IMG/VR virus record: IMGVR_UViG_3300009103_000174
Location: 1 to 21,899 of that record
DNA from: a virus
Reading direction: 5' to 3' (one strand)
DNA length: 21,899 nt
The first letter of the stretch is position 1. Every line of letters begins with the position of its first letter. Made by a program: the position numbers and the translations under genes. This document shows positions 5,879 to 19,886 of this stretch, in pieces. The notes under the pieces were generated by a model that ran no database searches, was not told the DNA's origin, and saw nothing but the letters and a program-made list of their open reading frames with translations.

Positions 5879-5916
5879 TACAGTCGCATTAGTAACTTTT
5901 TTTTGTTTATCTTCTA

Positions 5917-5934
5917 CTATAGTGTCACTTTATT
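5917..5934 (-). promoter_or_regulatory. SP6-like phage RNA polymerase promoter toward late genes
   Basis: On the minus strand, positions 5928-5917 read GTGACACTATAG, identical over 12 bases to the core of the SP6 promoter. With the six bases upstream (AATAAA against ATTTAG) it matches 15 of 18. The initiating G would be 5917, leaving a leader of about 93 nt to the first late gene at 5824. No single-subunit RNA polymerase gene is in the window, so the call rests on sequence identity and sensible position and direction. Confidence 0.5.
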
Positions 5935-5945
5935 AATTTATCCGA

Positions 5946-5973
5946 TGTATATACTTATTTTATCCGTTAGCAA
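5946..5973 (-). promoter_or_regulatory. Weak sigma70-like promoter reading left
   Basis: The minus strand shows TTGCTA (5973-5968), a 16 nt spacer and TATACA (5951-5946). The spacer includes CGGATAAAATAAG, resembling the ATCGGATAAA spacer of early promoters 2 and 3. A second ATCGGATAAA follows just downstream. It could give early low-level transcription of the late strand. Confidence 0.3.
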
Positions 5974-6011
5974 AATCCTCCCCTACCAGAGTACGCAACT
6001 TGGTGTAAGAC

Positions 6012-6109
6012 TTTTCGGGCGCGTGTCCGGGACCCCCGGGCCCTGGCCTGGTGGCTCTTGATTCACGGGCAAAAAACGTTTTTTATATCGGCACTCGAAC
6101 AATGCGCCC
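6012..6109. repeat. GC-rich nested inverted-repeat block
   Basis: Within an otherwise AT-rich spacer, 6015-6058 is mostly G and C, with CCGGG/CCCGG (6027-6031 with 6035-6039), GGGCCC and GGCC repeats. GGGCGC (6017-6022) can pair with GCGCCC (6104-6109), CGTG (6022-6025) with CACG (6064-6067), and AAAAAACGTTTTTT (6071-6084) is a perfect palindrome. It might be a structured RNA, a bidirectional transcription block, an origin or an attachment site; the sequence alone does not decide. Confidence 0.45.
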
Positions 6110-6137
6110 TTGCGTTTTATTAGCGAATCTCGACGAT

Positions 6138-6166
6138 TTGACAGGGAGAGACAAGGGTTCTTTGAT
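6138..6166 (+). promoter_or_regulatory. TTGACA-type promoter reading right
   Basis: A consensus -35 TTGACA (6138-6143) is followed after 17 nt by TTTGAT (6161-6166), a 4-of-6 match to the -10. It lies upstream of promoter 1 and would read the same early gene. Confidence 0.35.
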
Positions 6167-6232
6167 TCAATTTGATTAAGTATCAATCTATCCGTGAGTT
6201 AAAAGAATAATTAAATCAATGCATTTTATCTG

Positions 6233-6261
6233 TTTACAAACGGATTAATAGGCTGTAGTAT
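6233..6261 (+). promoter_or_regulatory. Early promoter 1 (TTTACA-17-TAGTAT)
   Basis: TTTACA at 6233-6238, 17 nt spacer, TAGTAT at 6256-6261, with CTG directly before the -35. It drives the gene at 6288, whose ribosome binding site AAAGGAG lies about 20 nt downstream. First of eight promoters that share the TYYGTTTACA box. Confidence 0.7.
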
Positions 6262-6287
6262 AGGCCTGATTCACGAAAGGAGTCATT

Positions 6288-6584
6288 ATGAGTAAATCTA
6301 AAAGAATTTACTCTTTTGAAATCCCTTCAGACTTTGAGAATCAGAAAATGACGCCTCAAGTGTACCAAATTTTGAGCGGTATTTCTGAATCTGGAGTAAG
6401 TGAGTATTCTGAAACTGAGCTTAAAACCTTTGTTCAGAAGCTTGCAGATGATGGAAAATTAAAAACTGGCCAAAAGCCATGGAGAATTTTCCAATACTAC
6501 AGAGCTCAAATGATAAACGCTGGAATTTGTAAGATGTCCAACGTTGAAGATTCTGAAGAGAAATCAGAAGCTGTAAATCAATAA
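6288..6584 (+). CDS. Early hypothetical protein, 98 residues
   Basis: Not recognised. The start is well defined: AAAGGAG then ATG at 6288, downstream of promoter 1. The protein begins MSKSKRIYSFEIPSDFENQK, then has SEYSETELKTFVQKLADDGKLKTGQKPWRIFQYYRAQMI (about residues 43-82), which reads as a helical domain with a winged-helix-like KLADDGKLKTGQKPWRIFQYY pattern, followed by an acidic tail. It is a complete monocistronic unit with its own promoter and an intrinsic terminator. As the first early gene it is a candidate host-takeover or regulatory protein, which is inference only. Confidence 0.72.
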   Translation: MSKSKRIYSFEIPSDFENQKMTPQVYQILSGISESGVSEYSETELKTFVQKLADDGKLKTGQKPWRIFQYYRAQMINAGICKMSNVEDSEEKSEAVNQ

Positions 6585-8039: not shown

Positions 8040-8987
8040 ATGTCGGCAAATATAGAATCGATGGCTTATGCAGGACAAGTTCCTTGGCATGGTCTTGGTC
8101 ACAAAGTTGGCAATGATTCAACTCCCGAACAAATGGAAATAACTGCGGGTTTAGATTGGAATGTTGATAAAGTTCCGTTTCATAACCCGAAGACTAAATC
8201 CGATTCGGAAGATTTTTTCGTGCTAGTTCGTGACAAAGACGGTAAGGAATTATCGCCTTGTGGTCATTCCTATATTCCTGTGCAAAATAGACAAGCGCTT
8301 GGATTCTTCAAGAAGTTCACAGAATCAGGACAAATGACTCTTGAGACTGCGGGTTCTTTAGACGGAGGCAGAAGAGTTTTTGTATTAGCAAAAACATCTG
8401 AAAGTTTTTCGGTTAAAGGCAAAGACAAAATAGACTCATATCTACTTTGTTATCACCCGCATATTTGGGGTCAATCGTTAAAGATTATGTGGACTCCTAT
8501 TCGTGTGGTCTGTCAAAATACTCTTATGATGGCGTTAGACGGAAAGAGTTCCGAGTTCCGTATGCCTCACATCAGAGAATTTGATGGAGACGTTCAATTT
8601 AAAGCTGAACAAGCTTTAGGTTTAGCTCACGATAAAATGGAGACATTTAAAGAACAGGCTAATTTATTAGCGTCCAAAGAATTCACAGACAAAGACCTGT
8701 GGAAATATTGGATTCTTTTATTTCAACCTTCTCTTAAAAATGAACCAAATCCAACGCCCGAAATGTTTAGCAGGACTCTTGAATATCTTAATCAAGTTAT
8801 TCATACTCAACCCGGTTCGACGGTCGCAAGAAATACATGGTGGCAAGCTTTAAATGCTGTCACGTATTATATGGACCATCAATCAGGAAGAAATAGGGAC
8901 GCAACCATGACATCAGTTTGGCTAGGTCAAAAAGCCGCGTTAAAAAGACGCGCGCTAGAGTCTGCAGTTAAATTTGCAACTCAATAA
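8040..8987 (+). CDS. DUF932 family phage/plasmid-like protein
   Basis: A 315-residue protein of the DUF932 family, also described as phage/plasmid-like protein TIGR03299. The typical opening is present: a short lead, then MAYAGQVPWHGLGHKV (about 8-23) and the DWNVDKVPFHN segment. Later come FVLAKTSESFSVKGKDKIDSYLL (about 117-139), the conserved RVVCQNTL (158-165), and the HDKMETFKEQANLL helix. Members are common in phages and plasmids but their activity is unknown; accessory roles in replication or defence have been suggested for the genomic settings where they occur. ATG 8040 follows AGAGAGGAGA. A GC-rich hairpin follows the stop. Confidence 0.85.
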   Translation: MSANIESMAYAGQVPWHGLGHKVGNDSTPEQMEITAGLDWNVDKVPFHNPKTKSDSEDFFVLVRDKDGKELSPCGHSYIPVQNRQALGFFKKFTESGQMTLETAGSLDGGRRVFVLAKTSESFSVKGKDKIDSYLLCYHPHIWGQSLKIMWTPIRVVCQNTLMMALDGKSSEFRMPHIREFDGDVQFKAEQALGLAHDKMETFKEQANLLASKEFTDKDLWKYWILLFQPSLKNEPNPTPEMFSRTLEYLNQVIHTQPGSTVARNTWWQALNAVTYYMDHQSGRNRDATMTSVWLGQKAALKRRALESAVKFATQ

Positions 8988-8998
8988 CAATCCGTGGG

Positions 8999-9019
8999 TC
9001 GGGGCTCAAAAGGCCCCGA
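8999..9019 (+). terminator. GC hairpin after the DUF932 gene
   Basis: TCGGGGC pairs with GCCCCGA around a 7 nt loop. No T-run follows, so it may be a weak terminator or an mRNA-end stabiliser. A second small hairpin GCTCC-ATA-GGAGC lies at about 9034-9046. Confidence 0.5.
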
Positions 9020-9103
9020 TTCGCATATATTCCCGCTCCATAGGAGCTCAGAGATTAACGATTTAAACCTTTTATGATAGAGACTATGGACCAAATTAAT
9101 CCG

Positions 9104-9131
9104 TTTACAAAGTATTTAAACGTGATATTAT
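9104..9131 (+). promoter_or_regulatory. Early promoter 6 (TTTACA-16-TATTAT)
   Basis: TTTACA at 9104-9109, 16 nt spacer, TATTAT at 9126-9131; ATCCG precedes the -35. Drives the gene at 9155. Confidence 0.7.
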
Positions 9132-9154
9132 AATTCCTAGAAAGGAGAGAGATT

Positions 9155-9337
9155 ATGGAACCCATGTTTTTAATTATTCATCCGGGATTAACTTACTTAA
9201 AAAAATTCCAAATCGTCACTTTGTCATATTTAAACAAGGCAAAAAAAGACTTTGATTTTAATCCAAAGTTTTCTTCAACTGACGAAACAAACCAGCCATT
9301 TACTTATACTGATGGCGCGGAATATTTTTTAAAATAA
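9155..9337 (+). CDS. Early hypothetical protein, 60 residues
   Basis: Not recognised. ATG 9155 follows GAAAGGAGAGAG, a strong ribosome binding site, and promoter 6. The product has a hydrophobic but charged N-terminal half (MFLIIHPGLTYLKKFQIVTL), a Lys-rich middle and a Thr/Asp-rich end. Residue 4 is a second Met that could also serve as start. It is a monocistronic unit between two TTTACA promoters. Confidence 0.58.
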   Translation: MEPMFLIIHPGLTYLKKFQIVTLSYLNKAKKDFDFNPKFSSTDETNQPFTYTDGAEYFLK

Positions 9338-9347
9338 AATTAATCCG

Positions 9348-9376
9348 TTTACAATTTACTCAATATATATTAGTAT
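9348..9376 (+). promoter_or_regulatory. Early promoter 7 (TTTACA-17-TAGTAT)
   Basis: TTTACA at 9348-9353, 17 nt spacer, TAGTAT at 9371-9376; ATCCG precedes the -35. Transcription would begin near 9383 and run through a structured leader of about 184 nt. Confidence 0.7.
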
Positions 9377-9382
9377 AATAAA

Positions 9383-9566
9383 GTGGGTAAAACGCATTCC
9401 ATTTATGGCATGAGAGTTGAAATAACATTCAGTTTATCTACTGTTTAAACAATGGTGGGACCGCGATTGGGGTTTCAAACAGATACCGGGCTCCGGAGTA
9501 ATGGCCAGCAAGTTCTGTTCCCTGCAATCCCTGTTCCACCGCTTAAGAGATTAAGAGAGGAGCGAT
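9383..9566 (+). ncRNA. Structured leader / candidate small RNA
   Basis: The stretch between promoter 7 and the gene at 9567 is rich in nested complementarity. A 5' hairpin pairs CAT-CCAT with ATGG-ATG (9395-9412, one mismatch). The main 87 nt domain (9454-9540) closes with GGTGGGAC (9454-9461) against GTTCCACC (9533-9540). Inside this, GATTG (9465-9469) pairs with CAATC (9525-9529), GGG (9470-9472) with CCC (9520-9522), and ACAGA (9479-9483) with TCTGT (9514-9518). The tip holds CCGG/CCGG and GGCC repeats. It is far richer in GC than the flanks and has no reading frame. It matches no riboswitch class I can name. It could be a leader that controls the next gene, or an independent RNA. Confidence 0.6.
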
Positions 9567-10010
9567 ATGGTAAACTTAATAAATAAAGATTGGAAGCCAT
9601 ATAAGACGAAACCGAGGTTCCATGAGCGTAGAGTAACTTGTCATGGTTTATGTATTTGGCAGTTAAATAAAATGCTTAGAGGTTCCGGTTATAGAATTGA
9701 ACGACAAGGCAAAATTCAATCAGTTGTGGAGCTTTTATTAATTCCCACTGGTTATAAGAAAGTTCCATTAATTGATCCATTTACAGGATACTTCTATGTT
9801 AGATTATTTCCTAGAGAAAAAACATTAAAATACTGGCAGAGGACTATTAATAATTTAATGACTCGTAAGGTCACTAAAGAATGGATTATAGAGATCTGGA
9901 AACGTAAACTTAGACCTTATTATCGCACTTATAATAATAAACCTGATTGGAAAAATATAGAAGGTGCGGCAAATCAATTATGGAAAATCCATTATGGTTC
10001 TAAAAACTAA
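9567..10010 (+). CDS. Basic hypothetical protein, 147 residues
   Basis: Not recognised. A strongly basic protein rich in Lys, Arg, Tyr and Trp, including VTCHGLCIWQLNKMLRGSGY (about 23-42), a Pro/Gly-containing middle (LIDPFTGYFYVRLFPREK, about 68-85), and a C-terminal WIIEIWKRKLRPYYRTYNNK. The charge suggests nucleic-acid binding. ATG 9567 is preceded by AGAGAGGAG. It follows the structured leader directly, so the RNA may control this gene. The last 17 nt overlap the next frame. Confidence 0.6.
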   Translation: MVNLINKDWKPYKTKPRFHERRVTCHGLCIWQLNKMLRGSGYRIERQGKIQSVVELLLIPTGYKKVPLIDPFTGYFYVRLFPREKTLKYWQRTINNLMTRKVTKEWIIEIWKRKLRPYYRTYNNKPDWKNIEGAANQLWKIHYGSKN

Positions 10011-10251
10011 ATTTATAATGACTTTAATGCTGATTCCGTTTAATACGGAATTTAGTGTTAAGTCTCCTTTATCTTATTATCAATATGATGTGCCTAGTTG
10101 TGAATACGAATGGCATGAAGATTCAAATATTTCAATATATTACGAAGACATTAATAAACATAAACTACTAGTGAAAGGACAAGATGGAACTGAATATCAG
10201 ATTGTCGGCCATTATTGTGCGGAAAAATCATATTTTCCGTTTACAATGTAA
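9994..10251 (+). CDS. Small putative exported protein, about 85 residues
   Basis: Not recognised. The frame is open from 9964; I chose ATG 9994, which gives MVLKTKFIMTLMLIPFNTEF, a basic then hydrophobic start like a signal peptide or anchor. ATG 10018 is another option. No clear ribosome binding site is seen, so translation may be coupled to the preceding gene (17 nt overlap). The rest is polar and beta-like (YEWHEDSNISIYYEDINKHK, then LLVKGQDGTEYQIVGHYCAE) with two Cys. Its final codons are made by promoter 8, whose -35 box encodes the FPFTM end, so stop codon and promoter overlap. Confidence 0.5.
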   Translation: MVLKTKFIMTLMLIPFNTEFSVKSPLSYYQYDVPSCEYEWHEDSNISIYYEDINKHKLLVKGQDGTEYQIVGHYCAEKSYFPFTM

Positions 10252-10268
10252 ATTAATTGATATATTAT
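10240..10268 (+). promoter_or_regulatory. Early promoter 8 (TTTACA-17-TATTAT)
   Basis: TTTACA at 10240-10245, 17 nt spacer, TATTAT at 10263-10268; TTCCG precedes the -35. It lies within the end of the preceding gene and would feed the long operon that begins at 10283 or 10413. Confidence 0.66.
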
Positions 10269-10282
10269 TAAAACCAAGAGGC

Positions 10283-10468
10283 ATGGTAGTCATATCTGTA
10301 GGTCCTCTGAAACTAATTTGTTTATTCATTTTAGCTTCTTTCGTGGGCGGAGCTACTAAGCAACCTAGCGGTGAGATAGTGGCTCCGTGCCTAATAATAA
10401 TGTGGAGAGATAATGAGCACAAAAGAAAAATGGTTATATATCTACAAGGACGCAAATATAGACCTTAA
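10283..10468 (+). CDS. Possible small membrane or exported protein, 61 residues
   Basis: From ATG 10283 the frame begins MVVISVGPLKLICLFILASF and continues VGGATKQPSGEIVAP, a convincing hydrophobic signal or anchor. The last 56 nt overlap the next gene in another frame, and AAGAGG lies only 2 nt before ATG, so initiation would be poor. It may therefore be a short real gene or chance. It starts about 8 nt after the transcription start expected from promoter 8. Confidence 0.35.
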   Translation: MVVISVGPLKLICLFILASFVGGATKQPSGEIVAPCLIIMWRDNEHKRKMVIYLQGRKYRP

Positions 10469-10676
10469 TGCAGTCCAACCGCCATTACCTAAACAAGCTT
10501 TAGGAATAGCAAAGATATTAAAAGATAAAGGCGCAATTAAAAGAAATGAATTACTCGGTGAAATGCAAAATTCTGTTAAGACAAAGCAAAAAGGCGGAGC
10601 TAATAGAATCCTTGCTTATTACCAAGGTATTTTGATTAAAAGAGGAGTTATAGAACTTAAAAAGAAACCCGACTAA
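10413..10676 (+). CDS. Putative winged-helix protein, 87 residues
   Basis: ATG 10413 follows GGAGAGATA. After a beta-type start (KEKWLYIYKDANIDLNA) comes LPKQALGIAKILKDKGAIKR, then NELLGEMQNSVKTKQ, a Gly/Ala turn, RILAYYQGILIKRGVIELKK. The order helix, helix, recognition-like helix, wing with a basic end fits a winged helix-turn-helix. No DNA target is visible. It precedes the nucleotide-metabolism cassette by 16 nt and could regulate it; this is inference. Confidence 0.6.
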   Translation: MSTKEKWLYIYKDANIDLNAVQPPLPKQALGIAKILKDKGAIKRNELLGEMQNSVKTKQKGGANRILAYYQGILIKRGVIELKKKPD

Positions 10677-10692
10677 CAGAGAGGAGAGCCGT

Positions 10693-11571
10693 ATGGCTAA
10701 CGCAAGAGGAAAAGAGATTGATAATACTCATTTAAGTATAGACCAAGCCGAGGAGCGAGGTTTTATACACAGGGATTATATTGCACATTGTTTAAGATGG
10801 ACACATGTCGCAAAGTACCTTCATTTAAAATCACGCTATAAAACAGCAAGTATCTTAGATATTGGTTGTGGTAAAGATATGCCACTAGCTAAAATGCTTA
10901 TGACAAGCAGAATAGCACCTGAATATTATTTAGGAGTTGAATATAATAAGATGGAAATTCCAAGTATGTTTGATAAGACTAGGTTTAAACCTAATTTACT
11001 TTCAGGATTAGATTTTACTAAACTAAAAGAACTTCCTAATAGCTTTAATTATAGTGTATGTTTTGAAGTTTTAGAACATGTTGAACCTATTAAAGCAATA
11101 GAGATATTACAACATTTACCTAAATTTCTTAAACGAGATGCTGTTTCATGGTTCTCAACTCCATGCTGGGATGAGAAAGTTGGCGCAGCTGATAATCATG
11201 TTAATGAAATGACGTATCAAGCATTTGGCTCTTTACTAGAGGAAATGGGTTATAAGATACTAAACCATTGGGGAACGTTTGCTTCTTTAAAAGATTATAA
11301 ACATAAACTATTACATAATTTAGATTGGAATATTATGTTTACAAAATTAAGTGGATACTATGATACAAATTATTTATCAACCGTATTTGCTCCAATGTTT
11401 CCTGAGCATTCAAGAAATTGTTTATGGGAAACTCAATATGTAGGACAATTGAAATTAGATGAACGTCAATTTCCAAGAATAGATAAGATAGAAAATAAAT
11501 TAGGTTCATCAGTACATTGGAGGGACTTAGTAAAATGCCTAGATTGCGCTCGAGATTATGTAAAGACATAG
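10693..11571 (+). CDS. Class I SAM-dependent methyltransferase
   Basis: A 292-residue protein with a Rossmann-type methyltransferase core. Motif I is ILDIGCGKDMPLAKML (about 54-69), the acidic end of the second strand lies in YLGVEYNKME (about 79-88), and the CFEVLEHVEP segment (about 117-126) is the usual post-motif. The DNA amino-methyltransferase catalytic motif (N/D/S)PP(Y/F/W) and the cytosine-C5 PC motif are both absent, so this is not a standard restriction-type DNA methylase. The C-terminal third (about 200-292) is not recognised and may hold the substrate site. The gene lies at the head of the cassette, overlaps the pyrophosphatase by 37 nt and follows a strong AGAGAGGAGAG site. A base- or nucleotide-modifying role is suggested by the neighbours. 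Other small-molecule or protein targets are possible. Confidence 0.8.
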   Translation: MANARGKEIDNTHLSIDQAEERGFIHRDYIAHCLRWTHVAKYLHLKSRYKTASILDIGCGKDMPLAKMLMTSRIAPEYYLGVEYNKMEIPSMFDKTRFKPNLLSGLDFTKLKELPNSFNYSVCFEVLEHVEPIKAIEILQHLPKFLKRDAVSWFSTPCWDEKVGAADNHVNEMTYQAFGSLLEEMGYKILNHWGTFASLKDYKHKLLHNLDWNIMFTKLSGYYDTNYLSTVFAPMFPEHSRNCLWETQYVGQLKLDERQFPRIDKIENKLGSSVHWRDLVKCLDCARDYVKT

Positions 11572-11918
11572 AAGCTTTTCATAAGAAATTTAAACTTGGT
11601 TATAAAGGACCACCTAGAAAATTAGATTATCCTGTTGCTGCTGCTCGTTATAGACATCAGTTTGAAGAAATACAAGAACTTTCTAAATCAATTCATACAG
11701 GAAATTTAGAGGGAACCTTAGATGCCCTAGTGGATATTGTATATATCGCATTAGGAACTGCTTATTTAAGTGGATTTAATTTTGATGAAGCGTGGTCAAG
11801 GGTTCATAGAGCGAATATGAAGAAAGTGAGATGTGCAACAAAAAGATCACCTATTGATATAGTTAAACCTGTAGGATGGAAACCACCAAATTTAAAGGAT
11901 TTATGCCAGGACAAATAA
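11535..11918 (+). CDS. MazG-like / PRA-PH family nucleotide pyrophosphatase
   Basis: A 127-residue all-alpha NTP pyrophosphatase-like protein. Key signs are the acidic helix HQFEEIQELSKSI (about 41-53, Glu44/45/48 as likely metal ligands), LDALVDIVYIALGTAYLSGF (about 62-81, Asp67), and DEAWSRVHRANMKKV (about 84-98), the AN..K signature of the phage members. Enzymes of this superfamily hydrolyse (d)NTPs to NMP and pyrophosphate; the dCTPase/dUTPase of T-even phages is generally placed in it. I chose ATG 11535, with GGAGGG ten bases upstream, over a TTG at 11517. The gene overlaps its neighbours on both sides. In this cassette a dCTP-hydrolysing role is likely, because it would supply dCMP for the enzyme encoded two genes later; the substrate is not shown by sequence. 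Confidence 0.75.
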   Translation: MPRLRSRLCKDIEAFHKKFKLGYKGPPRKLDYPVAAARYRHQFEEIQELSKSIHTGNLEGTLDALVDIVYIALGTAYLSGFNFDEAWSRVHRANMKKVRCATKRSPIDIVKPVGWKPPNLKDLCQDK

Positions 11919-12913
11919 TTATTATTGACGGACCAGATGCTGTAGGTAAAACTACATTAGCAAATTCAATTATGAAAAGGGTTCCTAACACAAAGTACCT
12001 TCATTTAACTTATAGATTTAAAGATAAGATATTTGATTATCATACTGCCGCAATTCATTTAGCAAGTAAATGGTCAATGAAACATAATGTCATTATTGAT
12101 AGATGGTGGCCGACTGAAGCTTGTTATGCTAGTGTATATAGAAATACTAGTTCATGGCCTTTACAAGGAAGATTTCATGAACGCGTTGCTTTAAAATATG
12201 GAGCAATTTATGTTATGGCTTTACCTGATGATAATACGATTGCTAGACATAAGCGATTAAAAGTTGAAAGATCTGAAATGTATGATGATATTGCTGATTT
12301 ATGTCATTTATATTTAAAATTTTATTCAGGAGATTTAAACCATAAAGACAAAGGAAATTATATAGATCAAGTTATATTATCAGGTGGATTAAAACCTTAT
12401 AACTGGTACATTCCATATACTATTTCTGCTTATGCAGGTAATATGGATTATTTTATTGACATGATAATGGAAGTTGGTAAAATGATGAGAAGTGAACAAT
12501 GGATTGATGCTCTTGCTCCTAGTGAACACAATATATTAGGTCATAAAAAGTATGGAAAATACATGTTTGTAGGAGATCAAGTTAATCCGAAATATAATAG
12601 TGTATTTTGGCCGTTTTTTGAGTATGGTAATAGTAGTTTATATTTAACAGAAGTTTTACACAACCTATGGTTGAAAGAAAGCGAGTGTTGCTTTACTAAT
12701 GTTAAGGATAAGGATGGAAAATTAGATTTGAAATATGCGCGTGCGGCAGATGAAGCTGGCATGGATATTATTGCTTTAGGTAAAACGGCTGAAAAAGCCT
12801 TAAATGAGGCAAAAATATGTCCACATCATGTCATAAAGCATCCGTCATATTACAGAAGATTTAATGGAAAAGCCAGTGATGAGATGGTAAGAGATTTAAA
12901 GGATTTTATATGA
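11903..12913 (+). CDS. dNMP kinase fused to uracil-DNA-glycosylase-like domain
   Basis: A 336-residue two-domain protein. The N-terminal half is a thymidylate/deoxynucleoside monophosphate kinase-like P-loop domain with GPDAVGKTT (10-18), DRWWP (66-70) in place of the usual DR(Y/F) motif, and a basic lid RHKRLKVERSE (115-125). The C-terminal half (about 205-336) matches the uracil-DNA glycosylase superfamily: MFVGDQVNPK (221-230) as the active-site motif, then PFF (237-239), the TNV strand (265-267), IIALGKTA (289-296) and the terminal HPSYYRRF (313-320). Expected roles are phosphorylation of a dNMP, perhaps a modified one, and recognition or excision of a base. The start chosen, ATG 11903, is preceded by AAAGGA; ATG 11876 in the same frame has no such site. 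The gene overlaps its neighbours by 16 nt upstream and by ATGA downstream. Confidence 0.75.
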   Translation: MPGQIIIIDGPDAVGKTTLANSIMKRVPNTKYLHLTYRFKDKIFDYHTAAIHLASKWSMKHNVIIDRWWPTEACYASVYRNTSSWPLQGRFHERVALKYGAIYVMALPDDNTIARHKRLKVERSEMYDDIADLCHLYLKFYSGDLNHKDKGNYIDQVILSGGLKPYNWYIPYTISAYAGNMDYFIDMIMEVGKMMRSEQWIDALAPSEHNILGHKKYGKYMFVGDQVNPKYNSVFWPFFEYGNSSLYLTEVLHNLWLKESECCFTNVKDKDGKLDLKYARAADEAGMDIIALGKTAEKALNEAKICPHHVIKHPSYYRRFNGKASDEMVRDLKDFI

Positions 12914-13734
12914 TAGCAGGTTATTCGGCAAATGATGAATGGTTTAGAACTTTAGGGTTAATACTTAAGAATAAAAAGATAGTATCACCTAGAGATAAAT
13001 CTACTATGGAAATATTAAATCATAGAGTCTGCGTTGATATGACTAATCCTATTGTGACTTATATTGTAAGAGATATAGGATATAAGTTTATGGCTGCGGA
13101 AGCTGCATTTATATTAACAGGAAGAAATACTGTTGGAATGATTTCTAAATACTCTGATATAATTTCCCAATTTTCAGATGACGGTTATTTCTTTAATGGG
13201 GCTTACGGTCCGATGTTAATAGACCAATTTACATATATTGTTGATGAACTTATTAATGACCATAATACAAGACAAGCTGTTGCTACAATATGGAGAAGAA
13301 ATCCAAGACCAAGCAAAGATATTCCTTGTACTATCTCTGTTCAATTTATGGTAAGAGATAATAAGCTTCATTGCTTTGATAATATGAGGTCTAGTGATGT
13401 TTGGTTAGGTTGGCCTTACGACATATTTAATTTTAGTATGTGTTCAGCTTTTATTTCTTTATTATATAAATTAAGAACTGGACATGCATTACCACTAGGT
13501 AATATATATTTAACAGCATCAAGTCAACACTTATATGATTATAATTATGATAAAGCAATTGAAGTATTACAAAATCCTAAAACATTACCATATCCTTCAT
13601 TTGATATAAGTCAGTTTAACGATCCAAAAGAATTAACACAATGGCTTATTAATAGAGCTAATAAAGGGGATTTAATAGAATATCCTCAGAAACAAGAGGA
13701 ACATTTTGAATACGAACCATTACCCGGTAATTAA
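12910..13734 (+). CDS. Thymidylate-synthase-fold dCMP hydroxymethylase or methylase
   Basis: A 274-residue enzyme of the thymidylate synthase fold. Conserved sites are an early Glu (about 64, in AAEAAFILTG), the nucleophile Cys140 in DIPCTISVQF, the phosphate-binding MRSSDVWLG (159-167), and HLYDYN (207-212). The position that is Asn177 in E. coli thymidylate synthase (PFNIASY) is Asp171 here (WPYDIFNF). In T4 dCMP hydroxymethylase this residue is also Asp, and changing the Asn to Asp in a thymidylate synthase is known to shift it toward dCMP. I therefore predict dCMP as substrate, giving 5-hydroxymethyl-dCMP or 5-methyl-dCMP with a folate cofactor. ATG 12910 overlaps the previous stop as ATGA. 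The C-terminus is extended and polar and overlaps the deaminase start by 29 nt. Confidence 0.78.
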   Translation: MIAGYSANDEWFRTLGLILKNKKIVSPRDKSTMEILNHRVCVDMTNPIVTYIVRDIGYKFMAAEAAFILTGRNTVGMISKYSDIISQFSDDGYFFNGAYGPMLIDQFTYIVDELINDHNTRQAVATIWRRNPRPSKDIPCTISVQFMVRDNKLHCFDNMRSSDVWLGWPYDIFNFSMCSAFISLLYKLRTGHALPLGNIYLTASSQHLYDYNYDKAIEVLQNPKTLPYPSFDISQFNDPKELTQWLINRANKGDLIEYPQKQEEHFEYEPLPGN

Positions 13735-14242
13735 TGATAGACCAAGTAAAACAACATATTTTCTCGCTATGGCGAAACTCGTATCGACTCGTGGCACGTG
13801 TGCTCGTCGTCGCGTTGGTTGTGTGCTATCTGATAAGCATGGTTTTGTTCTTGCTACTGGATACAACGGTAACGGTAGGGGCCAAAGACATTGTATCGAA
13901 ACCCCCTGCTCTGGAGCAAAATACAAAAGCGGAGAAGGACTTGAAAAATGCGAAGCAATACACGCGGAACAAAACGCTATTCTCCAATGTAAGAATACTG
14001 AACATATTGAGAAAGCTTATATCACCGTAAGTCCGTGTGTAACGTGTGTTAAGTTATTATTAAATACTTCCTGCAAGGAAATCGTCTACTTGGAGGAATA
14101 CGTAAATATAGACGCAGAGAGGATATGGAAGAATGCCAATAGATTATGGACCCCAGCAACTACCGCTTTGGAAACCCGAGTCGAGGTGGACAGCACCACA
14201 GGATTTCCCAGACTTGTCTGGAGCAAAACTAATCGCAATTGA
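13706..14242 (+). CDS. Deoxycytidylate (dCMP) deaminase
   Basis: A 178-residue zinc deaminase. The substrate loop RGTCARRRVGCVL (about 29-41) is followed by GYNGNGRG, the zinc/catalytic HAEQNAI and SPCVTCVKLLL, which supply the His, Glu and two Cys ligands. It converts dCMP to dUMP, the precursor of dTMP. The start is TTG 13706 with AAGAGGA five bases upstream; no ATG precedes the conserved core except one inside it (13769), so the non-ATG start is the only sensible one. The last 110 nt (TPATTALETRVEV onward) overlap the polymerase start in another frame and are not part of the usual domain. Arg codons here are CGT/CGC, whereas the genes upstream prefer AGA, hinting at a different origin. Confidence 0.88.
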   Translation: MNTNHYPVINDRPSKTTYFLAMAKLVSTRGTCARRRVGCVLSDKHGFVLATGYNGNGRGQRHCIETPCSGAKYKSGEGLEKCEAIHAEQNAILQCKNTEHIEKAYITVSPCVTCVKLLLNTSCKEIVYLEEYVNIDAERIWKNANRLWTPATTALETRVEVDSTTGFPRLVWSKTNRN

Positions 14243-16031
14243 TTGCGAGACTTATGACCCAAACTTATTAACTAACGGACCAGGAGGAGTTAGAAAAGAT
14301 GGAAGACTTATTGGAATTTCAGTGGCAGCGAATACAGGATTTAGAGGATACTTCCCAATTGGACATGCAGGTGAAGGTAACCTTAACCGCAACCGTGTCT
14401 TACAATGGGCAAAAGCCACTTTCGAAACAGGCATTGACAAAGTTGGAGCAAATATCCTCTACGACCTTGAATGGCTTAGGACCGTTGGGATTGAAGTCAA
14501 AGGCAATAAATACGACATACAAGTTGCAGAACCACTCCTTGATGAAGAAAGAAAAGAAGGATATAGTTTAGATATTCTTTCAAAAAGATATTTAGGAAGA
14601 GGTAAAGATGAATCCTTACTAAACGCTGCAGCACAAGCTTATAATATTAATCCTAAAAAAGAAATGTATAAACTTCCTGCTCATTATGTAGGAGAATATG
14701 CAGAGATAGACGCAGTTAATACTTTAGAAATATTTAAAAAACAATTACCTCTTCTTGAAGAGCAAGACTTAATGGGTATTTTTAAGTTAGAGACTGATTT
14801 AATTCCTTTAATTTTAGATATGAGATTTAAAGGTGTAAGAATAGATATTAATAAAGCTGAAAAACTAAATAAGAGATATAAAAAAGAAGAATCTAGACTT
14901 TTAAAATATTTAAGAGAATTTGCTGGATTTGCTGTTGAACCTTGGAGTAATCAACAATTAGGAGTTGTTTGTGAACGTAATAAGATTTGGTTTCCTCAAA
15001 CTCAGGCTGGAAATCCTTCTTTTACTGGAGATTTTTTAAGTACTAGCAAAGAAATGTTTTTAACTTCTGTTTCTGAATATAGAAAAGTTAATAAAATGAG
15101 GAGAGATTTTATAGATAAAGTATGTTTAAAGATGAATGTTAATGGTAGAATACATGCTCAATTTCATCAATTAAGAAAAGATTCTGATGGAACGAGGACC
15201 GGGAGATTTAGTTCAAGTAATCCTAACTTACAACAGATACCAGCTAGAGATGAATACTGGGGACCATTAATAAGGTCTTTATTTTTACCTGAAAAAGATA
15301 ATACATGGTTTAGACTAGATTATAATCAACAAGAACCTAGAATGTTAGTCCACTATGCTCGATTAAGAGCAATTAAAGGTTCTAAAGAAGCATGTGAAGC
15401 ATATCATGAAAAAGATGCAGACTTTCACACTATGGTTGCTGAAATGGCAGGTATTAAAAGAAAAATAGCTAAAACAATTAATTTAGGAATTATGTACGGG
15501 ATGGGTACATTTAAACTAGGACAAATGTTAGGCTTAAATTATAATGATGCCACAATTCTGCTTGAAAAATACCATGAAAAAGTCCCATTTGTTAAAGGAT
15601 TAATGCATGAGGCTTCAAAAGCAGTAACATATCGTGGCGAAATTAAGACATTACTAGGGAGAAAAAGACATTTTAATTTTTGGGAACCTTCTGATTCTAG
15701 ATTAAAATGGCCAAACAAAGAAATGCCATTAAGAAAAGAAGATGCAGAAGAGATATGGAAAGGTAGACCATTAAAAAGAGCATATACGCATAAAGCTTTA
15801 AATGCTTTAATTCAAGGAGCATCTGCAGATTTAACTAAAAAAGCAATGTTAGATTTATATAATGAGCTTAAAATTGTTCCTCATTTACAAGTACATGATG
15901 AACTAGATATATCTCATATAGATAATCCCGCAATTAAGTGGGTAACAGACATAATGGAAAATTGTGTTAAATTAGAAGTACCTTTAAAAGTATCTGTTGA
16001 AAAAGGTAAGTCCTGGGGAGAAGCAAAATAA
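14133..16031 (+). CDS. Family A DNA polymerase with 3'-5' exonuclease
   Basis: A 632-residue replicative polymerase. Exonuclease motifs: Exo I IAIDCETYDP (Asp37, Glu39), Exo II GANILYDLEW (106-114) and Exo III YAEIDAVNTL (Asp193). Polymerase: TGRFSSSNPNLQQIP (356-370), motif A RLDYNQQEPRML (Asp396), motif B RKIAKTINLGIMYG (443-456) and motif C QVHDELD (Asp589). Motif B has Leu451 where E. coli Pol I has Phe762 and T7 has Tyr. The opening QQLPLWKPESRW is typical of marine podovirus polymerases, so ATG 14133 is trusted despite a 110 nt overlap with the deaminase. The first 400 nt are richer in GC than the rest. It acts with the primase, helicase and nuclease encoded downstream. TAATG joins it to the next gene. 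Confidence 0.93.
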   Translation: MPIDYGPQQLPLWKPESRWTAPQDFPDLSGAKLIAIDCETYDPNLLTNGPGGVRKDGRLIGISVAANTGFRGYFPIGHAGEGNLNRNRVLQWAKATFETGIDKVGANILYDLEWLRTVGIEVKGNKYDIQVAEPLLDEERKEGYSLDILSKRYLGRGKDESLLNAAAQAYNINPKKEMYKLPAHYVGEYAEIDAVNTLEIFKKQLPLLEEQDLMGIFKLETDLIPLILDMRFKGVRIDINKAEKLNKRYKKEESRLLKYLREFAGFAVEPWSNQQLGVVCERNKIWFPQTQAGNPSFTGDFLSTSKEMFLTSVSEYRKVNKMRRDFIDKVCLKMNVNGRIHAQFHQLRKDSDGTRTGRFSSSNPNLQQIPARDEYWGPLIRSLFLPEKDNTWFRLDYNQQEPRMLVHYARLRAIKGSKEACEAYHEKDADFHTMVAEMAGIKRKIAKTINLGIMYGMGTFKLGQMLGLNYNDATILLEKYHEKVPFVKGLMHEASKAVTYRGEIKTLLGRKRHFNFWEPSDSRLKWPNKEMPLRKEDAEEIWKGRPLKRAYTHKALNALIQGASADLTKKAMLDLYNELKIVPHLQVHDELDISHIDNPAIKWVTDIMENCVKLEVPLKVSVEKGKSWGEAK

Positions 16032-18374: not shown

Positions 18375-19886
18375 ATGGAGAATAAATTTAGTTCTCTCTT
18401 TTCCGGCCTTGAACGCGCCCACGGTACATACGAAATAAAAGATTCCCGTGCCGATGGTAAACTGACGGGCAAGGCTATAACGGTAAGAGAAAACGTTACT
18501 ATACAAAAATGGAAAGACCACTTAGACGGGGTCAAAGGTCTAGGAATCATTCCTATTAATGATGAATCCAAAGTAAAATTTGGTGCCATTGATGTTGATG
18601 ATTATAAAGGTCTTAATCTAAAAGAATTATCTAAGAAAATATTTACTTTAAAATTACCATTCATTCCCTGTAGATCAAAATCAGGAGGAGTTCATTTATA
18701 TTTATTTTGTAAAGATTGGATTCCTGCTTCTATAATGAAACATAAATTAGAAGAATTATCATCTACTCTAGGCTTTGGAGGATGTGAAGTCTTTCCAAAA
18801 CAAATTCAAATATTAGCTGAAAGAGGAGATGTAGGTGGTTGGATTAATATGCCATATTTTAATTGCAAAAATACAGATAGATTTGCAATACATAATGGAA
18901 ATAATCTTTCACTTGAACAGTTCTTAGAGTTAGCTGAATCAAAACTACTAACACAAGAGGAGGTAGAAAAATTAAAGATTCCTGTTAACTCTGAGTTAAA
19001 GGAAGGACCTCCTTGTTTGCAAGTCTTAACACAACAAGGTTTTCCTGAAGGGACCAGAAATAATGGCTTATTTAATTTAGCTGTCTATACTAGGAAAGCA
19101 TATCCTGATACATGGCAAGCTAAGATTGAAGAGTTCAATATTAAGTACATGGACCCTCCCTTAAAAAGTACTGAGGTTTTAGAGGTTATAAAATCTGCAA
19201 GCAAAAAAACTTATCAGTACACGTGTAGCCGGGCTCCTATTGCGCCGCATTGCAATTCATCCGTTTGTAAACTCCGAAAGCATGGGATCGGAAATGATGG
19301 ACGTATGCCGGCTATACATTCTTTAACTAAATATAATTCTAATCCTCCTATCTGGTTTCTAGATATAGAGGGAAGTGGGAGAATAGATTTAGATACGGAT
19401 GATTTACAGAACCAGAGGAGATTTCAGAAAAGGTGCATGGAAAAATTAAATATGATGCCGGCAAAAATGAATGATAATTCATGGAATCAGCTCATTAACC
19501 ATTTATTTGAGAATCTAAATGTGATAGAAGCTCCTATAGATGCTAGTTCTGTTGGTCAATTATTTGAACTTATAGAAAGATTTTGTACTAGTAGAGCACA
19601 AGCATTAAGTAAGGACGAAATATTACTTGGGAAACCGTGGACCGAGGATAACAAGCACTATTTCAGAATTTCAGATTTGATGGCGTATTTTGATCGTCAG
19701 CATTTTAGGGAATTTAAAGTACATCAAGTTACATCGTACTTAAAGCAACGAAAAGCTGAACATCATTTTTGGAACATAAAAGGAAAAGGAGTTAATTTAT
19801 GGTCATTACCTGCTTTTGCTAAACAAGAGAACGGCCATGATGTACCTAAGGATGTAGAAGATGACAAGGAAGAAGTACCGTTTTAA
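18375..19886 (+). CDS. Archaeo-eukaryotic-type (AEP) primase
   Basis: A 503-residue protein with a primase/polymerase domain of the AEP superfamily, close to the TOTE-type primases. Motif I is FGAIDVDDYKG (69-79; Asp73, Asp75), motif II is RSKSGGVHLYLF (100-111; His107), and EVFPKQ (137-142) is also typical. Four Cys follow: Cys213 in PPCL, then Cys283, Cys292 and Cys297 in a CSRAPIAPHCNSSVC pattern, probably a metal site. The C-terminal 170 residues are helical with a basic YLKQRKAEHHFW segment and an acidic end. No helicase domain is fused; the helicase is a separate gene downstream. It makes primers for the family A polymerase. ATG 18375 follows GGAGG. The N-terminal 200 nt and the Cys region are richer in GC than the rest. 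Confidence 0.8.
   Translation: MENKFSSLFSGLERAHGTYEIKDSRADGKLTGKAITVRENVTIQKWKDHLDGVKGLGIIPINDESKVKFGAIDVDDYKGLNLKELSKKIFTLKLPFIPCRSKSGGVHLYLFCKDWIPASIMKHKLEELSSTLGFGGCEVFPKQIQILAERGDVGGWINMPYFNCKNTDRFAIHNGNNLSLEQFLELAESKLLTQEEVEKLKIPVNSELKEGPPCLQVLTQQGFPEGTRNNGLFNLAVYTRKAYPDTWQAKIEEFNIKYMDPPLKSTEVLEVIKSASKKTYQYTCSRAPIAPHCNSSVCKLRKHGIGNDGRMPAIHSLTKYNSNPPIWFLDIEGSGRIDLDTDDLQNQRRFQKRCMEKLNMMPAKMNDNSWNQLINHLFENLNVIEAPIDASSVGQLFELIERFCTSRAQALSKDEILLGKPWTEDNKHYFRISDLMAYFDRQHFREFKVHQVTSYLKQRKAEHHFWNIKGKGVNLWSLPAFAKQENGHDVPKDVEDDKEEVPF

Follow-up and report, generated by a model that had tools for sequence, protein, structure and literature searches.

The window analysed here is the whole of an IMG/VR record, 21,899 bases in length. 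Between positions 10693 and 14242 lie five overlapping open reading frames, all on the plus strand, which start at 10693, 11535, 11903, 12910 and 13706 (the last with TTG) and overlap successively by 37 nucleotides (between the methyltransferase and pyrophosphatase genes), 16, 4 and 29 nucleotides. This five-gene set and its overlaps, as given in the original prediction, were borne out by the ORF listing, Pfam and PHROGs. An alternative start at 11876 is possible for the kinase gene. The features of the cassette, and the polymerase gene adjoining it, are:

10693..11571, plus strand: class I SAM methyltransferase, 292 aa, predicted tailoring enzyme (Methyltransf_23, 8e-9)
11535..11918, plus strand: MazG/PRA-PH-like all-alpha NTP pyrophosphatase, 127 aa, predicted dCTPase (PRA-PH, 2.7e-9; phrog_671, nucleotide pyrophosphohydrolase, 2.9e-23)
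11903..12493, plus strand: N-terminal half of the kinase gene, encoding a dNMP kinase domain whose P-loop reads GxDxxGK (phrog_761, thymidylate kinase, 8e-12)
12539..12910, plus strand: uracil-DNA-glycosylase (UDG)-fold domain fused to the kinase (Foldseek match to UdgX 6iod, prob 1.00)
12910..13734, plus strand: thymidylate synthase (TS)-fold enzyme, dCMP hydroxymethylase-like, 274 aa (Thymidylat_synt, 1.8e-17; residue tests)
13706..14242, plus strand: dCMP deaminase, 178 aa, TTG start (dCMP_cyt_deam_1, 1.2e-17; phrog_174, 6e-34; motifs HAE at 86 and CVTC at 111)
14133..16031, plus strand: family A DNA polymerase (DNA_pol_A, 3e-64)

The family A polymerase group is the commonest neighbour of the cassette, present on the same strand in 74 loci. 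The deaminase and polymerase genes of the window share 110 nucleotides (14133-14242), and an overlap of identical length is found in locus L002 (genes 8800-9318 and 9209-11146), where it has been kept although the neighbouring TS diverges by about 20% at the protein level. Elsewhere in the window, a primase gene (18375-19886) encodes a PriCT-1 domain and an AEP-TOTE domain (PF22548, 5.6e-9), a type named after TOTE conflict systems. Upstream of the cassette there is a DUF932/TIGR03299-like gene (8040-8987), and 41 loci have a homologue at a comparable offset. GC skew changes sign at 5900-6300, where minus-strand virion genes, with matches to head-tail adaptor, terminase and major head proteins, meet the plus-strand early genes in a divergent layout.

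Relatives were collected by scanning IMG/VR with a profile of six TS proteins, keeping the best 80 of 448, and six cassette parts were scored with home-made HMMs. In this first set, built around the best 80 of 448, a TS gene is present in 86 loci, and 50 of these show the order methyltransferase, pyrophosphatase, kinase with UDG-fold domain, TS and deaminase, as do 55 of 119 distinct TS loci in an enlarged, de-duplicated set from IMG/VR and phage genomes, indicating that the order is not due to chance. Loci within the sets are related and the sets overlap, so that these counts are of non-independent events; in particular, the 55 loci cannot be taken as independent because many share a replication module, with DUF932 upstream and family A polymerase, VRR-Nuc-like and primase genes downstream. 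The cultured phage AXL3 has the identical five-gene order, and pelagiphages with T7-like RNA polymerase genes carry the cassette without the methyltransferase; thus, the cassette moves between types of phage. In PW916, the methyltransferase, pyrophosphatase, TS and deaminase are annotated in cassette order, with no annotated gene in the place of the kinase. Two variants of the layout were also noted: a ThyX gene with an inserted LAGLIDADG domain lies between the pyrophosphatase and kinase genes inside one cassette (L051:3010-4893), and the pyrophosphatase and kinase form a single fused protein of 325-351 aa in four loci (L061, L068, L078 and L385).

The TS-fold protein of the window was aligned with E. 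coli TS, the SPO1 dUMP hydroxymethylase, a T4-like dCMP hydroxymethylase and MilA. The E. coli TS sequence served as the ruler, and PDB profile alignments to other TS proteins agree at the Asn177 site. In the sequence alignment, Asp171 (codon GAC, 13420-13422) stands at the position of Asn177, as originally predicted, and Thr141 at that of His147, while Cys140 (codon at 13327), Arg121, Ser161, Asp163, Tyr99, His207 and Tyr209 are kept. Asp occupies the Asn177 site in 86/86 TS proteins of the first set, in 42/42 and 15/15 distinct TS proteins paired with a methyltransferase, and in 45/45 distinct TS proteins paired with a carbamoyltransferase; Asn at this specificity site, which would have told against the original prediction, was looked for by sequence alignment, and the residue proved to be Asp in the protein of the window as well as in all the relatives that were aligned. 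The C-terminal tail of TS is absent, with no residue at the E. coli C-terminal position in 82 of the 86 proteins, that of the window included. The protein thus departs from ThyA at Asn177, at His147 and in the tail, and it scores far below the NCBIfam ThyA cut-offs. These departures bear on the explanation suggested by the authors on AXL3 and PW916, that such genes serve ordinary nucleotide metabolism, with a thymidylate synthase and a dTMP kinase making dTTP from dCMP. The gene names and the deaminase suit a dCMP-dUMP-dTMP route, but the dUMP-selecting site is Asp in all relatives, the tail and His147 are missing, AXL3 and the L065 genome each encode a separate ThyX, as does the cassette of L051 within its own bounds, and AXL3 DNA resists enzymes with G/C sites, all of which makes a thymidylate route very improbable.

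The closest solved relative of the TS-fold protein is the CMP hydroxymethylase MilA (profile match, 3.3e-34). At the positions of the MilA ribose-preference residues Ala176 and Lys133 there are Ser161 and Arg121, both in 86/86 proteins and of the deoxy type, and therefore dCMP is the expected substrate. Three residues ahead of the nucleophile the T4 enzyme has an acid, a signature for water activation that it needs for hydroxymethylation (PMC6400193); the window has Asp137 (codon at 13318) there, and 85 of the 86 first-set proteins have an acid, a count to be read with the fact that one of the two search patterns used for the set itself contained this Asp. A second T4 signature, Ser or Thr two residues before the active-site Tyr, is replaced by Gly97 in the window and by Gly in 85/86; this Ser is not universal among hydroxymethylases, since the SPO1 dUMP hydroxymethylase has Ala there. 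In an association study, the positions of Asn177 and His147 were the top two separating modified from unmodified contigs, and Asp177 TS, PF01503 and PF00383 domains went with modified-cytosine contigs (PMC8670742).

The same residues bear on whether the enzyme might instead be a dCMP methylase, as in phage Xp12, making 5-methylcytosine directly and leaving the methyltransferase with some other job. A single Asn-to-Asp change converts TS to such an activity (cited in PMC8670742), and Gly97 takes the place of the Ser of the T4 water network; against this, the acid at -3 that the T4 enzyme requires for hydroxymethylation is in 85/86 first-set proteins, the tail with which TS closes its site for methylation is absent, and the same TS type pairs with carbamoyltransferases, a characterised relative of which needs the hydroxymethyl group and ignores 5mdCTP. 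A dCMP methylase is accordingly improbable, and the enzyme is most likely dCMP-hydroxymethylase-like, a predicted activity for which the alignment, the acid signature, the gene context, the AXL3 digests and the published association (PMC8670742) all argue. The original reading of the cassette as one for cytosine modification is supported; as a correction to it, the TS-fold enzyme is unlikely to make plain 5-methylcytosine.

The original prediction named a kinase here, and the UDG-fold domain that the gene also encodes had been missed. AlphaFold gave a confident two-domain model (pLDDT 91.9, pTM 0.90), in which Foldseek matched the first half to B. subtilis YorR (2axp/3kb2, prob 1.00) and also to thymidylate kinases; for the second domain, at about residues 222-345, the match was to UdgX, as listed above. 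The motifs G-[DE]-x-x-N, WP[FW], N275 and HPxxxRF of this domain are conserved across 65 fused proteins, so that the fold, motif A and the HP motif B of the UDG superfamily are all present; in these 65 relatives the Fe-S cysteines of family 4/UdgX are not conserved. Some kinase relatives have no UDG-fold domain. One example is podovirus MW202510 (L005:14850-15338), which has a short kinase without the UDG half and, downstream of the primase, a separate gene annotated as a G:T/U glycosylase. When IMG/VR was scanned with the kinase as a lone sequence, no relatives came up, since patterns of that sort reach close relatives only; profiles succeeded. We would guess that the UDG-fold domain removes deaminated or wrong bases, or sorts nucleotides.

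The methyltransferase has a generic class I fold (model pLDDT 88.6), and fold searches gave generic class I matches only, with both N- and O-methyltransferases among them; such matches leave the choice of methylated atom undecided. Its motif IV is ExxEH (E125, E128, H129), followed later by H169; E128, H129 and H169 are kept in 121/121 distinct relatives and E125 in 120/121. The motif IV of HEN1 was reported to differ from the one in base methyltransferases (PMC1397878), and the methyltransferase of the window is HEN1-like in this respect, in contrast to the (D/N/S)PP(Y/F/W/H) of base methyltransferases, although its profile matches to HEN1 and UbiG are weak and an attempted alignment of H169 with the metal-binding His of HEN1 did not establish a correspondence. 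The HEN1-like motif IV and the conserved later His favour an oxygen acceptor, hence 5-methoxymethylcytosine as a candidate product. The methyltransferase is a phage-specific family: a search of about 85,000 genomes of bacteria and archaea gave five relatives, each of them on a contig of a metagenome-assembled or uncultured genome and some of these contigs phage-like; five records were found in the phage collection and none in the plasmid collection.

When IMG/VR was scanned with the methyltransferase as anchor, a TS-fold gene was present in 65 of 80 loci, and in the other 15 the expected place of the TS gene coincides with an end of the locus, or with the methyltransferase itself being the terminal gene. 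The TS is of the Asp type in all 65 evaluable viral loci. In the original prediction the target of the methyltransferase was unknown; with this linkage, it is probably a tailoring enzyme. Two TS lineages are paired with it, the GAYG type of the window and an SNYG type, which has the T4 Ser signature and a different gene order; the methyltransferases of the two kinds of loci are 58-62% identical whereas their TS proteins are only 21-29% identical, and the methyltransferase has therefore passed between cassettes that are only distantly related. The pairing has a single clear exception, a methyltransferase relative at L384:4932-5882, on a 305-kb contig, with no TS gene within 5 kb.

In two loci, L021 and L044, a carbamoyltransferase (Carbam_trans_C, 1e-24 and 6e-24) occupies the methyltransferase slot directly before the pyrophosphatase, kinase, TS and deaminase genes, and the TS is of the GAYG type. 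The cassette of the window encodes no carbamoyltransferase according to the ORF listing, Pfam and the part HMMs. Conversely, a carbamoyltransferase-anchored scan gave 55 loci, 43 of them with TS and none with the methyltransferase; over all sets, which overlap in contigs, the methyltransferase was found in 163 loci, the carbamoyltransferase in 57 and both together in none. A TS tree with 123 rows requires six or more switches between the two labels; this is a quick tree, and its well supported branches alone force fewer changes. A related carbamoyltransferase acts on 5hmdC in DNA and on 5hmdCTP but not on 5mdCTP (PMC8670742), and for this reason the GAYG-type TS very probably makes a hydroxymethyl product. 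Because the methyltransferase and the carbamoyltransferase are interchangeable beside the same precursor-making enzyme, the simplest reading is that both use one and the same precursor. On this reading the methyltransferase is probably another way of tailoring 5-hydroxymethylcytosine, and its product is perhaps 5-methoxymethylcytosine. A third kind of tailoring enzyme may be encoded at L082:3800-4798, where the gene immediately preceding the pyrophosphatase, in the tailoring slot, specifies a 332-aa protein with no Pfam match. Six carbamoyltransferase loci (L251, L254, L258, L261, L265 and L280) have two TS-fold genes each, one of which often has a changed motif (QMRSSNFLTLLPYD) without the usual Asp after RSS.

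A sub-question within the hydroxymethylcytosine reading, rather than a full rival to it, is whether the methyltransferase acts on host RNA, on protein or on N4 of cytosine. The generic fold matches to N- and O-methyltransferases and the L384 relative fit such a target, to which we give nearly an even chance; the adjoining Asp-type TS in 65/65 evaluable viral loci, the exchange with a carbamoyltransferase family active on the hydroxyl of 5hmC, and the HEN1-like motif IV point instead to tailoring.

AXL3 DNA resists 35 of 37 restriction enzymes, and the only two that cut, TasI and Tru1I, are the two tested enzymes with A/T-only sites; the authors of that study took the genes to serve dTMP supply and did not settle on a modification (PMC7504290). 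The digests fit cytosine modification by the cassette, and by themselves they do not distinguish modified cytosine from modified guanine. Guanine modification was considered and gained no support from the TGT and QueC families, which have no matches in AXL3, nor is there a match in AXL3 to the C5-DNA-methylase family (PF00145), the enzyme that C5 methylation of the DNA by that route would use.

Given the gene content, gene order, residues, folds, co-occurrence and mutual exclusivity observed here, it is likely that the cassette supplies phage DNA with a modified deoxycytidine nucleotide, hydroxymethylated and then, as proposed here, tailored by the methyltransferase. We infer the chemical steps and their order as follows. 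The pyrophosphatase would convert dCTP to dCMP, and the TS-fold enzyme would place a hydroxymethyl group on C5 of dCMP, from methylene-tetrahydrofolate and water. The kinase half would phosphorylate the hydroxymethylated product, and host NDP kinase would make the triphosphate, the latter step being established biology; the adjoining family A polymerase would presumably incorporate it. The deaminase would turn leftover dCMP into dUMP, feeding the thymidine supply. The methyltransferase would tailor the hydroxymethylated cytosine, as nucleotide or in DNA, in the role played by the O-carbamoyltransferase in sister cassettes, and the modified cytosine would hide the phage genome from host nucleases. 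A more specific proposal is tentative and on balance doubtful: that the methyltransferase, interchangeable with O-carbamoyltransferases, O-methylates the 5-hydroxymethyl group to give genomic 5-methoxymethylcytosine, and that the UDG-fold domain tied to the kinase polices deaminated or wrong bases. No relevant paper on 5-methoxymethylcytosine in phages came up in the literature searched. If the reading of the cassette is right, a SAM-dependent methyltransferase joins glucose, arabinose and carbamoyl transfer among the finishing routes of hydroxymethylcytosine in phages, the published and unexplained restriction resistance of AXL3 is accounted for, and AXL3 is a cultured phage in which the base could be identified directly. 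The interchangeable methyl/carbamoyl slot would also be a usable rule for finding more DNA-tailoring enzymes.

Synthesis of hydroxymethylcytosine by phages is known; the methyltransferase in the tailoring slot and the kinase-UDG fusion are new. Like the T4 gp42 pathway, the cassette follows a logic of dCTP removal, hydroxymethylation, kinase and deaminase, and its TS-fold enzyme has Asp at the specificity site, the catalytic Cys and no TS tail, with Asp at -3 where the T4-like protein used for comparison has Glu. Unlike T4, it belongs to a separate TS-fold lineage with Gly for Ser94, forms a compact operon in small podo- and siphoviruses, has a methyltransferase instead of glucosyltransferases, and fuses the kinase to a UDG-fold domain. 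The MetaGPA 5hmC carbamoyltransferase clusters (PMC8670742) likewise have Asp177 TS, PRA-PH and dCMP deaminase neighbours and a group-transfer enzyme before the pyrophosphatase, but the slot in the window holds a methyltransferase; neither a methyltransferase nor a UDG domain nor a thymidylate kinase comes up in the main text of that paper. MilA, of mildiomycin, shares the Asp, the Cys and the -3 acid and differs in Ala176/Lys133 as against Ser161/Arg121, which is why a deoxy substrate is expected in the window. AXL3 and PW916, unlike the phage of the window, are siphoviruses with another replication module and a cassette annotated as thymidylate metabolism, and AXL3 is 33% identical to the window in the methyltransferase and 42% in TS. 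Finally, the C-terminal half of the kinase is like UdgX and family 4-type glycosylases in fold and motif layout, and unlike them it has no conserved Fe-S cysteines and is fused to a nucleotide kinase.
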